64,000 nt of DNA from Earliella scabrosa (lineage: Eukaryota; Basidiomycota; Agaricomycetes; Polyporales; Polyporaceae), in NCBI GenBank assembly GCA_022605405.1, contig JABYQQ010000004.1:992001-1056000 (forward strand), given 5' to 3'. The position numbers and the translations under genes were made by a program. Positions 2,503-22,479 of this stretch are shown here, one piece after another (position 1 is the first letter of the stretch; every line of letters starts with the position of its first letter). Under the pieces are notes generated by a model. The model did no database searches. It worked only from the letters and a program-made list of their open reading frames with translations, and was not told the origin of the DNA.

Positions 2503-3093
2503 GGTGGACGACGGCGGTGGCAGACGAGAGAATCGCGCGCGCGAGGTTATGCGGGTGGCATCCGTCGCTCGCTCTCAGGCAGCTTTATAACGTTCTCCCT
2601 AACACACGTCGCGACGACATGGTCCCTTACCGCTGGTCGGCGTACAGACTCCGATCAGGCAAGTGCAATGTACATCTGAAAATGCAGGTGCACAGCCGCG
2701 ACAGCGAATCGTCTCTGCCAGCGGCGGTCGCTGTAGTACTAGTACTATAGAAGATCTAGAGCGCAGTCGACGCTGATCAATCATGCGCTCGTGTGCCTCT
2801 CTCACATCATCTCGATCAGTTCGCAGACACGGGTCCTACTTATCGAGCTCGCCGTGCGTTGCGTGGCCCACCGGCATGTACTGACACAGTCCATAGTTCA
2901 GTAGATCGTGGGCCCGCGACCGGTTATCCGCGTTGACAATGACTGACGACTAAAGACGAGATATACACGTGCTGATGTCACTTCAGAAGGTGGAAAGAAT
3001 GTCGATACCCAAATGCGCGAGAAACACCCAAGTGACTGAACGTGTGCGATAGTCGGGAAGACGGTACGTCTACATAGCTAGAGTGCAGCAAAA
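2503..3093. other. intergenic between SDR promoter and tRNA
   Basis: Contains the putative promoter of the minus-strand dehydrogenase gene. No convincing reading frame or repeat is visible. Confidence 0.5.
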
Positions 3094-3171
3094 TGACCAC
3101 CGCAGGGGTCGAACCTGCAATCTCCTGATCACCCGTCGTAGTCAGACGCGTTGCCATTACGCCAGGCGGCC
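3094..3171 (-). tRNA. tRNA-Arg(ACG) with an apparent 6-nt intron
   Basis: On the minus strand the 7-bp acceptor stem GGCCGCC/GGTGGTC (two G-U pairs) encloses three arms: a D arm with stem GCGT/ACGC, an anticodon stem TCTGA/TCAGG, and a T arm GCAGG-TTCGACC-CCTGC. The anticodon loop is CTACGACGGGTGA, 13 nt instead of 7. With T33 fixed, the anticodon reads ACG. Removing six nucleotides just 3' of position 37, the standard site of eukaryotic tRNA introns, restores a 7-nt loop. The 3' end is followed on the minus strand by TTTT, a Pol III terminator. The core matches fungal tRNA-Arg(ACG) as I remember it. An insertion-bearing tRNA pseudogene is the alternative. Confidence 0.85.
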
Positions 3172-3207
3172 ATACCTTTCTTTCGGCAAAGCGTTAATAT
3201 GTCAGCG

Positions 3208-4990
3208 CTACACAGCATCTCGCAAGCCGATGGCTAACTCTGTTGACCCAGAAGCCCCCCGGTGGCCGGAGTTAGAGCACTGTTCCGAGTGTAACGCTTG
3301 GTTGGCACTCGGCCACACGGTGGAGTTAACCTGTCGGACAAAACTGGGAACGTCGGCGCGCGACGAATCCAAGGAGAGGTGCAGGGGATCGTCCCGGTCG
3401 ACGCCACGCAGCGTGCGGGTGCCCGCTTCTTGAAGATGCAGGAGAAAGCGGTTTATGAGCACTGCGGTGCATCTGCAGCCAAGAATATTAGAGTGAGAAC
3501 GGTGCAACTTCAGAGCCGGAGGGAGACTGCAAGTAGCACAGGGGAGACATACGGGTCGGTGAACAGGACGATGTTACTCTCAAAGCCGGTGTTGAATATC
3601 TGGCGTGGGTTGTTTCCAATGGGTGTTCTGACATTACGGCCGTGGGAGTGGTCCGACTCACCGATCGCAAGGTGAAAACTAGATGAAGCACGTTCAAGAC
3701 CAACAGGACGCTAGAGTCGGCGAGGGTTAGAGGTTGATGGCTCGACTAGCTGGGATGCGCACATGAAGTAGGTTGCGCCTGATGCATGGGTCAACGCGTG
3801 AGGAACTAAAACCACTAGCAATAAGATCAGACGCCACGTACCATCACGAACTAGGATGCTTTGTAGGGATCGAGCTTGGGATATCTCGCTGAGGATGGTC
3901 TTTCTCGGGATGACAGAGAGCGTGATGCCAATCAAGATGATATCTGCAGCGATCAGACACCCTCGCGAGATGACGACGTCTGCGAGCGGACGTCAACGAG
4001 AGAGCGGTGGGATGGGTCGTTCACGGAGACCATAGTGATACATACCTCTACAAGCACAAGTCAGTCACATGGACGGGCGGGATCTAAGTACAGTGTGATG
4101 AACGGACCTCACAACCTCGTCCACAGTAACGTCAATAGTATTCATGCATCCGTAGACTGGGTCGTTGTAGCCAGAGAGGTGATCGACAAAGAACCTTGTC
4201 TGCATCCGGAGGTGTCAGCTTCGCAGTCTGGAGGCGGCCGCATTGACCTCATAGACACTAACCAAATTCACGCCTAGCGGGACTAGCGAGAGCCCCAGGA
4301 CGAGTAGGAACCAGAGTCGGCTTCCAGCACTGAGTGCGTATGCCCTACGCGCAGCAAACACTGGATCGAAGGAGATCAGCACGGCGATGACCAGCAGAGC
4401 GACGACAAGTGACACGAACCGCCCCACGGGAGGGACTGCAGCATCTCGACGGCAGTGAGGGTCCTCTGAGTGGTCCTACAGCTGTTGTCACGTTGCTCAG
4501 TCCTGACTTCCTCATGACACTGGCGATAAACCGACCTCTGCTGGGCGATCAGCGACAATGGAACTTGTATGAAGTGGCTTTAAGAGACACGTACTTCATC
4601 CGTGAAGATGGGCAGATATATCGCCAGGACCATGACGTAGTATGTCAGGGATATGTACTTACTCGTGAGATACAGGATGGAGGGGGCCGTGAAGCGGCGC
4701 TTCCAGAAGAAGTTCACTTCGCCGTCCAAGGTGATGATGGACTCGTAGATGAAGAACACTGCACGTGACGGTACGAGGTCAGTATTCGCAAGATCGTGGC
4801 AATATAGTAGCTCAGGGGTGCTCACCTGCAGCCGCTAGCGTGCAGCATGTGTTCACGAACCTGAGGTACTGCGTGTCAGTCTTCCGAGGATCGTGTCGGG
4901 CGTTGAACCCATTGGATACACTGACACTTACGTGCTATCATATTCCGCGACAACCTCGGCGGTGTAGGAGTCTAGCGAGTTGTCCGACAT
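3208..4990 (-). CDS. DUF6533-type multi-pass membrane protein, copy D
   Basis: The first exon starts at the ATG at 4990 and gives MSDNSLDSYTAEVVAEYDS. The next small exon gives TFVNTCCTLAAA, and the following exon carries the DUF6533 core (FFIYESIITLDGEVNFFWKR...SILYLTSKYISL). Later exons encode hydrophobic segments (AARRAYALSAGSRLW...SLVPLGVNL), a segment after the micro-exon at 4046-4047 (VVISRGCLIAADIIL), and the tail (INRFLLHLQEAGTRTL), which ends at 3208. About six or seven membrane spans are expected. It is the divergent, opposite-strand member of a family with three tandem copies at 15.2-22.5 kb. The family is expanded in agaricomycetes and has no established function. I cannot rule out extra exons in the middle of the gene. 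Confidence 0.75.
4046..4047 (-). other. 2-nt micro-exon (AG) of DUF6533 copy D
   Basis: The upstream exon ends GTTGTGAG at 4108. Intron 4107-4048 is GTCCGT...TGTAG (60 nt), intron 4045-3980 is GTATGT...CGCAG (66 nt), and the next exon starts ACGTCGTCATC at 3979. Only with the two bases AG inserted does the frame continue, as V-R-D-V-V-I-S-R-G-C-L-I. Without them the frame is lost. Confidence 0.75.
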
Positions 4991-15206: not shown

Positions 15207-17004
15207 ATGTCACCGCCGCCGAACCCTGAAGTGGCCGCTGAGCTCATAGCAGCATATCAAAGCATGTAGGTCTTGACACTTCCGTTGCTTGTCGAGAGGG
15301 TGCCCCAACGGCTGACACGTTTTTCTGCCAGCTTTGTGCAATGTCGCTGTGAATTCGCCGCAACAGGTCAGGCGAGTAGGTCAATCATTCAGTCACGCTG
15401 ACTTTGTTATTCTCAGCATTCATTATCTACGAGTCTGCCATCACTTTCGGCAGTGAAGTCGAATACTTCTGGAAACGCAAGTTGACGGGTCCTTCGATAT
15501 TGTATCTCTCAAGCAAATACCTAGCCCTCGCGCTCCAAGCAATAGATATAGCGACGCAGCTACCCGTTTTCACCCCTACGGTACGTTACCTCCGATCTCG
15601 CCGTGAATTGATGGTTAACCTGTCCCCAGAGGTCTGTCAGAAAATCTCTGTGAGCGAACGAAGAATTACTTAAGTTCTTAGCACCCAGCTGTGAGAAGAT
15701 TCAAAAGGCGCAAGTGATCGTAGACTGTTCACAATATGTCCTTTGGGGCGGTACGTGGTCATGGATACTCGATATCGTTCTTGCACTATATCGTCCTTCG
15801 ATGTTGATTGTAGTATTTGCGGCGCTTCGTGCATACGTCTTGAGTAACCGCAGCCGCGCCTGGTCTACGGTCGTCTTCGTGCTTTCATTAGCCTCGCCGG
15901 CGATCAACTTGGTATGTTATTCGCCATGTGTCCTGGTGTCATATGCTAGCTAAGCTGACATATCGTGCGCGCAGTCTCCACTCTTTGTCAATACATTCAT
16001 TGGCTATATTGATCCGATCATCGGATGTTCGTTCTCTAGCAATATTACTGCTGGCGAGGTCATGAGGTATGATGGTGACGTCTTGTGGCCACCGTTCTCG
16101 GTGTTGACTTAATCCGTAGAGGTACCTTTGCCACACTGCTAAGCGAGCACCTCTTTCTGAGTGACATTCTCTGGCAGGGGTTATCATCTCCAGGACTAGT
16201 CTCATTGTTACGGACATCTTGCTGATTGGCCTCACACTGTCCAGTGTGCCTTGGAGAAGGAACATCTTCACTCAATCTACGAAATTTCGGACACTACAGA
16301 ACATACTTGTGCGCGATGGTATGTGACACCGTATGCATTGTTGCTGATCTGTATAACCACTGATATATTGTCTTCGTTAGGAACAATCTACTTCGTGTAT
16401 GTACATCGACGTTCTGGAATGTTTCTCATCTGAACCCTGCCTCCCCTTCCAGAGTCCTATTGATCTTGAACCTCCTTCATCTCATATTTTCGTTACAATC
16501 GGTGGGTTCAATCACATCATGGATATCTAGACTGATCGGCAACTCATCGACTACACAGCTCTTCAGCGCTGACGCTGCCGGCGGTGGAGGGAGTTATATC
16601 TGGAGTTTTACCGAAGTGTACGTTCATATGCCGCTGCGCATTGGGTACTCTTGCGCTCGTGCATGCGGCTACTGACTCGGAGATCTTACCGCAGATGCAC
16701 AACGATGCTCATCAACAGGTTCCTCCTGCATCTGCAAGAAGCAGGCACCAGGACGCTATGCGTTTCCTCGGACAATCCCCTTCATCTCTCGTTAGAGTCC
16801 AGTCGTGGAGTACCCAGCTTCGTGAGGGTCATAGGCTCTATTGCCTACCGCGATTCAGCCGAGAATGGTCATCCTCCTGTGGCCAATGGCGATGTGGACC
16901 CCCTCAGGGCGGAAGCACCTGGCGAAGATTCAACTTCAGGCTCAGCCGCCGAGTCGTCAACTTCACCGTCGGAGTATGCAGTCTTGCGAACCGCGTCTGT
17001 CTGA
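15207..17004 (+). CDS. DUF6533-type multi-pass membrane protein, copy A
   Basis: The first exon begins at the ATG at 15207 (MSPPPNPEVAAELIAAYQS). Small exons follow (FVQCRCEFAATA), then the DUF6533 core FIIYESAITFGSEVEYFWKR with SILYLSSKYLALAL. Next come CEKIQKAQVIVDCSQYVLWG, ALRAYVLSNRSRAWSTVVFV, SPAINL, SPLFVNTFIGYIDPIIGCSF and GEVM, then the 2-nt exon at 16120-16121, then VIISRTSLIVTDILLIGLT, ILVRDGTIYFV and LLILNLLHLIFSLQSV. The C-terminal exon ends at 17004 with INRFLLHLQEAGTRTL and an acidic/Ser tail. About seven hydrophobic segments suggest a receptor-like membrane protein, but no ligand or partner is visible. It is the first of three tandem copies, with about 630 nt to the next. Confidence 0.8.
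16120..16121 (+). other. 2-nt micro-exon (AG) of DUF6533 copy A
   Basis: The exon ends GAGGTCATGAG at 16066. Intron 16067-16119 runs GTATGA...CGTAG (53 nt), intron 16122-16177 runs GTACCT...GGCAG (56 nt), and the exon resumes GGGTTATCATC at 16178. Inclusion gives M-R-G-V-I-I-S-R-T-S-L-I. Direct joining without AG hits a TAG within eight codons. Confidence 0.75.
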
Positions 17005-17637
17005 TGTTCGGATGACGTGTCCAGCACAAGGAAGACATCGATGTATTTATTATTGTACCTTTTCTTGGAAGCATGACGAGGAAAAGCATTCCGTTGGGTG
17101 AAGCAAGTCACTACGCGGGAATTAGTGGCAAGGGAACTTCACGGAGGAGGCGGACTGTATCTTCGCACTTTGCCGGATGCGTAGTAAGTGACCGAACCTA
17201 TCAATTGTGATGATGGAAGCTCATGCTATGCACCGATGCGATGAATAGCGCGGTGGCTGGCCAGTGAAAATGACGCTGCTGTGCAGTTTACCATGTGCAC
17301 AATACCTTGACTAGATGTTCGTTTCCTCAAATCGCATGACGATCTGTCTGTGCACTCGTGGCTCCGTCAGTAGCTTGCTGATCTTTGCTGTTCCAGGTCA
17401 TTTATTAGCATGAACCGTGCGTGGCATCCCTCTGTTCGACTGCGTAGAAGCCCTGCGTTGCTTCAAGGCTGCTGGCGATCTGGTGAGTGATAGATAGATA
17501 GGAGAAGATGTTGGTTGCACTCGCAAAGGACTATCGCCGCGACTGACCCTTTTATTGAGGGAGGGCTGGCTAAGATTCGTTTGAGCCCTGATTCCTGAAC
17601 GCCTCGTCCCAAGACCTGATTCCATTCCACACGATCC
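17005..17637. other. intergenic between DUF6533 copies A and B
   Basis: Nothing recognisable apart from the expected 3' and 5' flanks. There is no conserved reading frame. Confidence 0.45.
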
Positions 17638-19307
17638 ATGGCTTACTCGTCGGATTCGAGCATCGACGACCTCATTTTGGCGTATGACAGCATGTGAGTA
17701 GTGGCCCAAGGATTGTCACTCACCGCACTATTGACCTCACTAACGGGCGACAGGTTCGTTAATTCTTGCTGCACGCTCGCAGCGACAGGTGCGTTGGCGT
17801 AGTCTGAAGTTGTAATATGCACCGACCCATGACTCATGTCCTCACTAGTACTGCTCATGTACGAATGCATGATAACATTCGACCACGAGGTCGAGTACTT
17901 CTGGAAGCGCACGTTCCCCGGAGCCTCAGCCTTGTATATTTTCAACAAATACCTCGCCCTGGTCGTCTCCGGCCTGTCCCTTGCAACTTACTTCCCGGTG
18001 TTTACGGACAAGGTTCGTTGTACTCCTGGCCGAGCTCATCTCTTCACCTTCGCTGACGATCACTCAGAGGTCGGTTCTTTGAGATTCTGCCCGTGTATCC
18101 TCGTGCTTGACGACGAAGCGCACGCTGCGCAGCTGTGCAAACACTCAGAACGCGATTCTCTCGTTCCAGAGCTTACAGTTTCTCCCATGGGCCAGTACGT
18201 TACTGCTTCGTCTGAGCTTTCCCATGAGGCCCGATAGGAGCTCAGTCCATTCACAGTATTCTCGATGCTTCGCACGTATGCGCTCACCAAGCACCGAACG
18301 ATGTCCATACTTGTCTTCATGCTGTCCATTGTCCCGCTGAGTATCAATCTGGTACGTTCGGTGTTTGAGCAGCAAGGTCTCTGTCCATAAACTTTCGACC
18401 ACTAGGCGCAATATGTCGTTCCTGGGATTAACGGAGGAAACGATCCGATCTTTGGATGCGTGGAGGACGTCCCCATACCGGTTGATATGTTCGCTAGGTT
18501 AGTAGCATTCCCTTTCTCTTTGTTGGTCATCGCTGACCATGTCACACAACTTCAGGTGTATGTTCCTTTAGCCCACATTCTCTTCGTGTGCGATTAACAA
18601 ATGACACGAATCAGTTGTCATCATTTCAAGAGCTTCTCTTATTACGGCAGACGTCATGCTCGTGTTCATCACGCTATGGAACACTCCCAAGAGAAACATA
18701 CTATCGCAAATCCACAGGCCTTCATCCCTGCACAGCATACTGCTCCGAGATGGTCCGTGAGCACTCGGGTGGTCTGCATTCCCATGTGGATGGTGACTCA
18801 CATTCTTGGCTATTAGGTACCATATACTTTGTGTATGTCTCCATTGTGGTGGACTACCATCCGTCCAGACGCGCCTATGCTGACTATCGATGAATAGGGT
18901 GTTAGTGGTGCTCAATGCTCTGCATCTCACCTTCTCCTTGATCTCAGTGGGTACTCAGCAGGCGTGGAATGCCATGAACAAGTCTCATCACGCTCGCAGG
19001 TCTTCGGAAACGGAACAGGAAGCTATGTTAGCATATTCACAGGCCCGTAAGCACTGAAGATTATCCACTATGTCACGAGAGACATACTGACCCTTCGTCA
19101 CTGCACAGAGGAACGGCAATCCTTGTTTCGCGTTTCCTCTCACACCTTCAAGAGACAGGACGGCGGACGCTCCGAGTCGACCTCGAGCATCCCCTACACA
19201 TCTCCGAAGGTTCAGCTTATAGCACGCCCAGTTTCGTGCGAACTGTCGTTCCACCGTCCAGCCGGCGCAAGGCTGACTCTGACAGCCTGAGGGAATGGGA
19301 GGCGTAG
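17638..19307 (+). CDS. DUF6533-type multi-pass membrane protein, copy B
   Basis: Starts at the ATG at 17638 (MAYSSDSSIDDLILAYDSM), then FVNSCCTLAAT and the core LLMYECMITFDHEVEYFWKR with ALYIFNKYLALVV. Later exons give MSILVFMLSIVPLSINL, AQYVVPGINGGNDPIFGC and VDMFA. After the micro-exon at 18556-18557 come VIISRASLITADVMLVFIT, KRNILSQI, and VLVVLNALHLTFSLISV. The final exon ends with GTAILVSRFLSHLQETGRRTL and REWEA, with a TAG at 19305. It is the most divergent of the tandem trio in its loops, yet it keeps every exon boundary. The function is unknown, and the position between copies A and C shows it arose by tandem duplication. Confidence 0.8.
18556..18557 (+). other. 2-nt micro-exon (GT) of DUF6533 copy B
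   Basis: The exon ends ATGTTCGCTAG at 18497. Intron 18498-18555 is GTTAGT...TTCAG (58 nt). The two bases GT are followed by donor GTATGT, intron 18558-18614 (57 nt) ends ATCAG, and the exon resumes TTGTCATCATTTC. The frame reads A-R-F-V-I-I-S-R-A-S-L-I. Confidence 0.72.
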
Positions 19308-19715
19308 CCCGCTGGACTTTCTGATTGCGAAAATGGGGGCACTATGGGATATCCGAACGCCGAATTGGCCATCGGACATCACGATGGGGGAAGCGGTCCT
19401 CACTTCAGTGCGCAGCTCCATAGAACGGGTATTGGACTTCACCAACGGTGCTTCCCGTAGGGCACAGGATACAACAGCAAGGCAAGCTTGTAGTAGAATA
19501 ATAGACACGCAGGTTGAGTGTCCCATGTAGCAGAACAGAAGGCTTCAGGAAGTCGATAAATCCGACAGTGTGATGCTCGAGGTTCGATTCAGAAGCGCCC
19601 TCCTGATGTTGTTGCAGACCAACGGTGGGAGCGAGCTGGAAGGAGAGATGTAGAGTCCAAAGCAAGAGTCAAGAGGGTTGGCATTTATTCAGCGGCTGCT
19701 TCGCAGAACAAGCAT
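19308..19715. other. intergenic downstream of DUF6533 copy B
   Basis: No supported gene. The right edge is the TA target site of the MITE. Confidence 0.45.
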
Positions 19716-19717
19716 TA

Positions 19718-20073
19718 GCCCTCCTCAATTCTACTAGCTTATTTGCCAGCTTATTTTCCAAGTGCCGTGCGTGACTGATGCGTGATGGACTGCTTGCCAA
19801 ATTTGTGCGTGCCTCGCAATGTGCTTGGGCGTTCCTCCCAGGTTCCTCCTAGTGACAGGCTCACAATCGCCCTACTCTTCGCCTGCGTGCTTCGACGCTC
19901 ATACACTCGACAGTGCAAGGAGACACAGCGGCTTTCTCAGCGTCCTCGACGTTGAGCTCTGGTCTTGCCACTCTCGCCGAGACTCTCGCTTACTCGCACT
20001 GACGTCACTCGCTCAGTCACAGGCGAACCTTGGGAAATAAGCTGGTGAATAAGCTAGTAGAATTGAGGAGGAC
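19718..20073. mobile_element. MITE with about 45-bp terminal inverted repeats and TA target duplication
   Basis: The left end starts GCCCTCCTCAATTCTACTAG. The right end, read as reverse complement, starts GTCCTCCTCAATTCTACTAG. The match continues for about 45 bp with only a few differences, ending near TTTCCAAG in both arms. Both outer edges abut a TA dinucleotide (19716-19717 and 20074-20075), as expected for Tc1/mariner-type targets. The 356-bp body has no open frame, so it must have been moved by a transposase encoded elsewhere. The superfamily is inferred from the TA duplication alone. Confidence 0.82.
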
Positions 20074-20075
20074 TA

Positions 20076-20772
20076 TTGATGCCGTTGGATGTACTGTACG
20101 TCTATGACGATAACTTTGGCAAGGCGGCCGAGTCTCGCGCGCCTTAGTAGACGCCTGCCAGTGATGGAGGATCGGATCATCAAGGATGCCCGGGTCCGTC
20201 AACACGAGGCACCGGCAAGGCAAGGCTGTCAACGACGACCGTTCTCCCCTGTCAGAGAACCAGCAAGACACCGGCGCATGAGTCCCGGGGATGTGAGGCA
20301 ATGCGCAAGGTGAACTGCGGACAAAGCATAGAAGCCGGGCTGGTCGCTTCCGTGACTCACAAGAGGGGGATCGTCTCATGGGCTGTCATATCGCGAAGCT
20401 AACCACCGCCTGTACACAGCCGCTAGAAACTACTCCGCAGAAACCATCACCAGAGTCACATTGTAACCAGCGCCCGGATCTTCCCTCGCATTCTGCTCTC
20501 CTCCTGCGACCATCTAGTGAGAGCGCTTCTGGCAAGTCTTGATCCAAAGGGTTCCACCGTCTAGTGTCCAGCAGCCGAGTAAGTCAACACCGGTAGTACC
20601 GGTACTCTCAACGTGGATGTGCACGGGAAGCGCGAAGACAGTTTGTCGCTGGAACAACCGGAGTCTCCTCCTCTGAGCTATATAGCCCAGACGGATGATT
20701 TGGATAGAGCGAACGTCAAAGGCACTAACGCACAGCGATTCGCAACTTGCAAGTGACTGTCATTTCGAAGCC
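20076..20772. other. intergenic upstream of DUF6533 copy C
   Basis: Holds the promoter of copy C. A TATATAG-like box lies near 20680, about 95 nt before the start codon. No gene seen. Confidence 0.45.
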
Positions 20773-22479
20773 ATGTCTCTTCCGCTCGATCCCGTCGTCG
20801 TCAACGAGCTGACCGCAGTGTATGACAGCTTGTATGTGACAGTCTTGCCGTATTTCCCAAAAAGTCTGACTTGAGCTTGAGCCTGGTGCAGGTTCATCAA
20901 CACATGTTGTACGATAGCCGCAGCAGGTTGGTTGAGCAGCATAATACTGTCAACGATGCTGACTATACCAACCTCAGCGTTCTTCATCTACGAATCTGTT
21001 GTCACCTTCGACGTGGAGGTGGAGCACTTCTGGAAGTTCAGGCTGACGGGACCTTCAATCTTGTATATCTTGAACAAATATCTATCCCTGATGGTTCAAG
21101 TGACGACCCTCGCGATATCCCTGCCCATGCTTACGGATACGGTACGTCATCACCATACCTCTCATATTCAATTTCCCTCACCACGCGACAGAGGTCCGTT
21201 CATCTGGAGGTTGAAGTGTAGATATCGGTACTCAGACTCACACTGTGCAGTTGCAAAAATATCCAAAGATCGTTGTTCGCTGTAGAAATTTTGCAGTATC
21301 TCCCATGGGCTGGTGAGTGCTCGCCAGAACTGATCATTCCTTACGAGTTATGAGTTTATAAGTGATTGGCTCCGCTAGCCTTCTCCGCGCTTCGTGTATA
21401 TGCGCTGAGCGGAAGGAAGTGGCTCTGGCCAATCCTCGTCTTTGCGCTTTCAATTGTACCCCTGGCGATCAACCTGGTGCGTTCCTCGTGCCTACTTTGA
21501 GTGTGTACTGATGCGAGTCGACGTTGCAGACGCAATTCTGGGTGAACAGACTATCTGGGTTTATTGATCCGCTGTATGGGTGTGTAGAGACTGGCATTAT
21601 CGGCCCCGCCGAGATCGTAAGGTAGGTGGGGATTCCGACTCGACGAAGGCTCACCTGATTGACTGAGATACCCATAGAAGTACTACTGCAATACCTATCA
21701 ACAATCACCTCTCGCTGACGGTCGCGCTCTATCAGATGTCACGATCTCTAGAACATGTCTCATCGTAGCCGACGTCATCCTGATCAGCATCACAATATCG
21801 AGCGTCTCGAGGAAGAACATCCTCAGCCAAATACTGAAACCCCAGTCTCTCCAATGCGTACTGCTACGCGACGGTTCGTGTTTTCATCACAAGCTGGTAC
21901 AAGCACTGATATACAGTTGTAACCCAGGAGCGATTTACTTCATGTGCGTATTTCAGTCAGTCTACAGACTACTCTTGGATGATATCCACTCCCGGCAGTG
22001 TCCTCTTGATTCTGAACGCGGTGCATCTCATCTTGTCGCTGCAATCCGTGGGTGCCCCTTCGTTGTATGCCAACAGTAAAAACCTCATCCTCCTTCACAG
22101 ACCTTCCTCGACGGAGTCGGGAGTACCGTCGTCGTATTCACCGAACCGTACGTACCCACCCACTCCTCGTTGCCGAGTCGTGCTCATCTCCATCCGCAGA
22201 TGCACAGCAGTTCTCGTCAGCAGATTCCTCCTGCACCTGCAGGAATCGGCCACCCGGACGCTGCGCGTCGGCTCCGACCATCCCTTGCATCTCTCGATGG
22301 ACTCCGCGCGCGGGGTTCCTAGCTTCGTGAGATTTGTGGGCTCAATTGGCTACCGGGCATCCCAAGAAGGAGAGCCTCGTCCCGAGATCGAATCGGGGCG
22401 CATGGACGAAACCGCTTCCTCCTATGCCACTGCGAACAATGCGGATCTCGAGCACCGGTCTCATATCGGCTCCGCATAG
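20773..22479 (+). CDS. DUF6533-type multi-pass membrane protein, copy C
   Basis: The ATG at 20773 gives MSLPLDPVVVNELTAVYDS, followed by FINTCCTIAAA and the core FFIYESVVTFDVEVEHFWKF with SILYILNKYLSLMV. Then come ALRVYALSGRKWLWPILVFA, VPLAINL, TQFWVNRLSGFIDPLYGC and AEIV. After the micro-exon at 21678-21679 come VTISRTCLIVADVILISIT, RKNILSQIL, GAIYFM and VLLILNAVHLILSLQSV. The C-terminus (VSRFLLHLQESATRTLRVGS...) ends at 22479. The exon map is the same as copies A, B and D. The tail is acidic and Ser-rich, probably cytosolic. The function is unknown. Confidence 0.8.
21678..21679 (+). other. 2-nt micro-exon (AA) of DUF6533 copy C
   Basis: The exon ends GAGATCGTAAG at 21621. Intron 21622-21677 is GTAGGT...CATAG (56 nt), intron 21680-21735 is GTACTA...ATCAG (56 nt), and the exon resumes ATGTCACGATC. 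The frame reads V-R-N-V-T-I-S-R-T-C-L-I-V-A-D. Confidence 0.75.

Follow-up and report, generated by a model that had tools for sequence, protein, structure and literature searches.

We sought to determine whether two nucleotides (nt) lying between two short introns can make up an exon of their own in four DUF6533 genes of Earliella scabrosa (Polyporales, Polyporaceae; genome of 51.67 Mb in 48 contigs). The genes, referred to below as copies A to D, lie in a 64,000-nt stretch of contig C4 (C4:992001-1056000), hereafter the window, and the positions of their features are counted from its first nucleotide. A sequence-only reading of the window had proposed a 2-nt exon at one place in all four copies; we find a second such block in the same genes, absent from that reading, and designate the upstream block ME1 and the one proposed earlier ME2. 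Judged from DNA alone, the two very likely form a real, old and family-wide pair of 2-nt micro-exons, and for copies A to D we hold with high confidence that both are constitutive 2-nt exons, each likely to be spliced by successive removal of two flanking introns of about 50-65 nt.

Two 2-nt blocks in the genes of the window

By spliced reading, each copy is a 13-exon gene: A at 15207..17004 (plus strand, 362 aa), B at 17638..19307 (plus, 318 aa), C at 20773..22479 (plus, 347 aa; public model C8Q76DRAFT_792859) and D at 3208..4990 (minus, 342 aa; public model C8Q76DRAFT_792852). A, C and D match DUF6533 (PF20151) with 48.4-49.3 bits, against a curated cut-off of 24.1, and the locus of copy B, with 55.1 bits in the genome search, also lies above it. 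Their structures were compared with a spliced protein-to-DNA aligner written for this analysis, in which each intron is penalised and exons down to 2 nt are permitted; the query for A to D was the reading of copy A, made by hand with a 2-nt exon already included. The layout obtained is 59/35/164/2/62/98/92/2/138/16/49, with both 2-nt exons in four copies out of four and only in-frame differences (exon 9 of A is 141, exon 6 of B is 95, and B has a shorter first exon). The 2-nt exon was chosen in all four copies despite the intron penalty, and of the paths scored, the one keeping both blocks fits the family protein best; paths with a single intron or with retained introns were rejected, the alternatives scoring lower in A to D. 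With both blocks kept, each copy reads as one 13-exon frame, while dropping ME1, ME2 or both brings an early stop in all four. Canonical GT...AG introns flank both blocks on all sides, and each block qualifies as a predicted micro-exon, a term used here for internal coding exons no longer than 15 nt.

ME2 is predicted as AG at 16120..16121 in copy A, GT at 18556..18557 in B and AA at 21678..21679 in C, all on the plus strand, and as AG at 4046..4047 on the minus strand in D, and the alignment loses 19.4, 49.0, 10.5 and 28.0 half-bits, respectively, when the exon is withheld. In copy A it is preceded by an intron of 53 nt (16067..16119) and followed by one of 56 nt (16122..16177); the corresponding left/right lengths are 58/57 nt in B, 56/56 in C and 60/66 in D, and all eight introns are complete, from GT to AG. 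Bases, positions and intron lengths of 53-66 nt are thus exactly those given in the sequence-only reading, and the protein pattern that the two bases were said to restore is seen in the joined sequences RGVIISRTSLI (A), RFVIISRASLI (B), RNVTISRTCLI (C) and RDVVISRGCLI (D). Its statement that the frame depends on the two bases holds as well, since skipping ME2 brings a stop at residue 178 of 362 in A, 247 of 318 in B, 176 of 347 in C and 216 of 342 in D.

ME1 lies 84 codons upstream of ME2; it follows exon 3, and the exon after it starts immediately ahead of a conserved Cys. ME1 is always AG in the four copies: it is predicted at 15630..15631 (A), 18068..18069 (B) and 21192..21193 (C) on the plus strand and at 4536..4537 on the minus strand in D, with score losses of 27.1, 31.8, 29.4 and 7.4 half-bits, respectively. 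In copy A the introns to its left and right measure 49 nt (15581..15629) and 57 nt (15632..15688) in the spliced alignment.

Conservation across the gene family

A search of the genome gave 150 DUF6533 matches, four in the window and 146 outside, a number that is a lower bound, with 150 of 233 candidates scored. The family set consists of 104 copies, namely the four of the window and 100 of the 146 listed outside matches, and three of the 104 readings contain an in-frame stop. They were aligned with a splice model trained on 495 introns at six other positions of the gene. It was adopted in place of a first, untrained model, under which AAG acceptors and GC donors incurred a penalty and long introns were let through; the counts from the first model are lower and are also given below. 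With the learned model, ME1 is predicted as a 2-nt exon in 82 copies and ME2 in 86, both occurring together in 69 and at least one in 99, so that the predicted micro-exons are conserved across related genes, in 82/104 (ME1) and 86/104 (ME2) copies. Forbidding the site costs a median of 20.0 half-bits at ME1 and 26.1 at ME2 (minimum for ME2, 5.1).

To estimate how often chance would give the same result, we randomised the interior of the stretch in those copies that have the exon, preserving dinucleotides and ends. The shuffled stretches yielded a 2-nt exon in the same place (for ME2, with codon and phases unchanged) in 63 of 820 trials for ME1 and 87 of 860 for ME2, and 24 and 1 of all trials, respectively, reached the real score. 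The earlier argument that four independent copies make coincidence unlikely is therefore right as to coincidence, which at ME2 is very unlikely (1/860), but not as to independence: A to D are paralogues sharing one gene structure, and do not represent four separate origins. When the junction columns of the profile were neutralised, the exon was still called in 65 copies at ME1 (with eight more at column 84 and one at 86) and in 88 at ME2, indicating that the blocks are called mainly by frame and not by residue preference.

The position and phases of ME2 are common to the 86 paralogues, and the tree makes it an old family trait. On this quick, unrooted tree of 102 of the 104 rows (two with scores below 360 were left out), the fewest changes between 2 nt and any other state number 14 for ME1 and 8 for ME2. 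Two pairs on contig C2, C2_1324794p/C2_1335270p and C2_1322312p/C2_1332788p, are identical in the tree, which suggests a recent block duplication.

In the family alignment, Cys occupies residue 88, the codon following ME1, in 100 of 102 rows and residue 158 in 101 of 102; this near-invariant pair may resemble the disulfide of seven-helix receptors. The two bases of ME1 also vary together with the third base of the codon that they share across the intron: AG occurs with C/T in 51 copies and with A/G in one, while other dinucleotides occur with C/T in 8 and with A/G in 14 (Fisher p 9e-9, relatedness ignored).

Five copies have neither 2-nt exon. Two of them combine a 5-nt ME1 with an 8-nt ME2, one (C2_2512354m) has both blocks within normal exons, and two are low-scoring. 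In addition, 2-nt exons visible by eye in C6_1433278p and C2_1852900p were missed by the model run, the learned model recovering only the first, and the family counts are therefore probably lower bounds.

Splice-site strength and a proposed order of intron removal

The four introns flanking the two blocks are of ordinary length, with medians of 56-58 nt. Statistics on their splice sites leave out the 13 of 104 rows with a score below 450 in the learned run, and those made with the earlier model leave out the rows below 450 in that run. The donor to the right of ME1 is clearly weak on its intronic side (4.53 bits vs 7.21 in 553 other introns, p 1e-16) and differs from the donor to the left (p 3e-10). 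At ME2, the left and right donors, with 6.65 and 6.71 bits, are near the ordinary value (p 0.3 and 0.06 vs 7.21) and alike (p 0.79). The “strained” splicing that the sequence-only reading suspected at ME2 is thus not clearly present there, although its right donor is weak on the exonic side.

We propose that splicing proceeds by intron definition, in which the spliceosome would recognise each short intron across its own length and the length of the exon would be irrelevant. Because the acceptor before the two bases overlaps the donor after them, the flanking introns could hardly be engaged at the same time and would leave in turn, one being removed after the other; at ME1 the left intron would probably leave first, as judged from the weaker donor on the right. 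Such exons would persist since the loss of either pair of bases would put the greater part of the protein out of frame, and ME1 would moreover complete the codon before the near-invariant Cys88. An exon of this kind might vanish only through exact loss of a flanking intron or through a compensating shift of a splice site, and a few copies resemble each of these outcomes. Lengths of 2, 5 and 8 nt suggest shrinkage or growth by whole codons, which may have run in either direction, the tree being unrooted.

A broader scenario, to which we would give somewhat less than an even chance, is that this receptor-like family has kept two obligatory 2-nt exons per gene through at least a hundred duplications, the exons having shrunk in whole-codon steps (8, 5 and 2 nt are seen) to a remainder held by the frame, spliced by intron definition and missed by annotation across Polyporaceae.

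Variant copies, public gene models and other readings

At ME1, the left intron is present and the right one absent in C2_1234100m, C4_715270p, C6_2493708m, C2_2530304p and C2_2512354m, in which the two bases open a normal exon. At ME2, the left intron is absent and the bases close a normal exon in C5_2939679m, C6_2325847m and C2_2512354m, while C13_931277p lacks the right intron and again carries the two bases in a normal exon; C2_2512354m thus lacks one intron at each block. A single intron giving the same protein had been named in advance as evidence against the 2-nt exon, and it does occur in these paralogues, but with the two bases in the adjoining exon, so that they support the 2-nt exon instead. 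C4_668607m, tried as a case of intron loss at ME1, looks intronless, but its AGCTGT may be an acceptor that is read through, and it was not counted. In the ME2 region of C4_1080556p (L063) there is a hairpin-rich stretch of 248 nt, possibly a small inserted element.

Other copies differ in the splice sites themselves, and they lend some weight to a reading in which the 2-nt exon exists in part of the family only, with nearby sites (tandem acceptors giving 5 nt, shifted donors) used elsewhere and inclusion mixed or alternative. A 5-nt ME1 is found in four rows, and an 8-nt ME2 in seven rows forming one clade (starred in the tree); in C3_2230105m, ME1 is apparently replaced by a donor 8 nt farther on, leaving a single intron of 123 nt; and in copy D itself the tandem acceptor CAGCAG before ME1 would permit a 5-nt exon, CAGAG. 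However, the 2-nt exon gives the best-scoring alignment in 82 (ME1) and 86 (ME2) of the 104 copies, and such shifts affect single copies and not the rule. We regard this reading as unlikely, although it is the strongest of the competitors.

Less probable still, and in our estimate quite improbable, is a reading without 2-nt exons, in which partial retention of the flanking introns or use of other splice sites adds or removes residues at the two places, gene by gene. This is how the public models proceed. That of copy D (P0001, C8Q76DRAFT_792852) translates the 54-nt intron to the right of ME1 in frame, has five additional residues at ME2 and terminates within the last intron; that of copy C (P0003, C8Q76DRAFT_792859) skips the exon following ME1 and continues through the intron to the right of ME2. 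Of four further public proteins, those from Lentinus (P0002) and Trametes (P0004) likewise carry extra residues at ME2, whereas Lentinus tigrinus P0005 and Fomes fomentarius P0006 match the family in length at this block. The surplus in P0002 resembles an intron kept in frame at the left site, which hints that this intron may be present in Lentinus too. Against retention, the added residues vary from model to model, and the lengths of the flanking introns are a multiple of three no more often than in one third of cases (left and right, 25/82 and 31/82 at ME1, 21/86 and 33/86 at ME2). If retained, only 10 and 10 of these introns at ME1, and 5 and 15 at ME2, would be free of stops. P0003 moreover loses the near-invariant Cys88, and the alternatives score lower in all four window copies. 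By our spliced readings, neither public model, of copy C or of copy D, is correct at either block.

Removal of both introns as one complex intron with nothing kept between them, at a recursive-splicing (ratchet) point or as a stwintron, is very improbable: two short introns do abut, ME1 reads cagAG|gt with AG directly before GT, and one copy has a zero-length junction, but keeping nothing would shift the frame by two and bring early stops in A to D, both introns are complete and not nested, and the single-intron copies hold the two bases in an exon. No intron in A to D interrupts a splice element of its neighbour, as it would in a stwintron, and the two bases between them are needed. Nor does an acceptor abut a donor with no base kept in these four copies, the true zero-length junction, of introns of 53 and 56 nt with the two bases opening the next exon, being seen in C1_3944056p only (1/104). 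The suggestion of a recursive-splicing site at ME2 consequently fails in A to D, where the two bases must remain in the mRNA for the frame, and the blocks in these genes fit micro-exons, neither stwintrons nor recursive sites.

Several observations nevertheless weigh against the proposed constitutive 2-nt exons. The profile was trained on readings that contain the exons, to which the run with neutral columns is only a partial answer, and 46 of the 146 listed outside copies fall outside the family set. The margins vary: eight of the 82 ME1 copies lose less than 4 half-bits, and within the window ME1 in D (7.4) and ME2 in C (10.5) are modest. The first, untrained model called the exons in only 68 (ME1) and 79 (ME2) copies, with minimum losses of 0.8 and 0.1, and under it chance matches were more frequent, with 87 of 680 and 110 of 790 in shuffled stretches. 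All four flanking introns score a little low at the acceptor (4.3-4.8 vs 5.0-5.9), and branch-like YTRAY motifs are fewest in the introns to the right of ME1 (30/74, vs 45/90 to 61/89 in six others), although the other three flanking introns do not fall short in them. When relatedness is taken into account, the covariation at ME1 comes down to four independent pairs (1.7 same, 0 opposite), which is not significant and is underpowered, and codon covariation at ME2 is not significant either, Arg at 171 occurring in 15 of 85 copies vs 12.4 when shuffled. Finally, the public models of C and D manage without 2-nt exons.

Precedents, significance and neighbouring features

Exons of this size are rare in the published literature too, as the sequence-only reading had held, and we found no report of 2-nt exons in fungi, or of the exons of DUF6533 genes, in the open-access literature that we searched. 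The closest precedents are the 1-nt exons of plant APC11/VPS55 and of Fusarium CYP621A. A 1-nt exon was described in Arabidopsis APC11, and conserved 1-nt exons in plant APC11/VPS55 were confirmed by RNA (PMC4674806, PMC8831610). PMC4674806 had given 3 nt as the size of the smallest characterised exon, and it also argues that the two introns are unlikely to leave at the same time where acceptor and donor overlap. The Earliella exons resemble those of APC11/VPS55 in being shorter than a codon, critical for the frame, conserved and unannotated, and there, too, related genes that lack the introns carry the base within an ordinary exon, and intron definition with removal of one intron after another has been proposed. 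They differ in that the plant exons are of 1 nt, one per gene and RNA-confirmed, whereas in Earliella they are of 2 nt, two per gene in 69/104 copies, and predicted from DNA. The 1-nt exon of Fusarium CYP621A (PMC12940212), confirmed by sequencing reads, is likewise fungal and flanked by short introns, with wrong public models and an argument from frame and relatives; that gene, however, is an ascomycete P450 with one read-confirmed exon of 1 nt, while the DUF6533 exons are predicted. The P450 genes of Phanerochaete chrysosporium, also a white-rot basidiomycete, have tiny exons and small introns, but their shortest exon is given as 6 bp (PMC1184071). In stwintrons, two close short fungal introns are removed in turn (PMC6616335, PMC9024468, PMC12403724), as proposed for our genes, but a splice element of one of them is disrupted by the other (PMC6616335), while in the DUF6533 genes neither intron is interrupted and the two bases that separate them are predicted to be kept.

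Among proteins with this domain, the Coprinopsis protein SNB1 is a predicted seven-helix membrane protein, and its gene family is required for fruiting-body patterning, as stated in the title of the paper (PMC10949477). If transcripts confirm the 2-nt exons, they would be among the smallest known, with two per gene across a large family. The natural variants, comprising exons of 2, 5, 8 and 0 nt, copies in which the left or right intron is absent and apparent site shifts, would make exon-size limits, intron definition and splicing order testable within one genome. Our readings also suggest frequent errors in database entries of DUF6533 proteins at these two places, one of which is beside the near-invariant Cys; both comparable models of the Earliella scabrosa genome are in error at each of them.

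A further small exon, of 16 nt, is found at the same place in 96 of the 104 copies and measures 16 nt in every one of them; in copies A to D it lies at 16381-16396, 18817-18832, 21928-21943 and 3763-3778, respectively, by spliced alignment. Between copies B and C there is an inverted repeat (19713-20078) with arms of 66 nt that are 83% complementary and 234 nt apart, which resembles a small element with terminal inverted repeats. A tRNA-Val (tac) gene at 3093-3172 on the minus strand is the immediate downstream neighbour of copy D.

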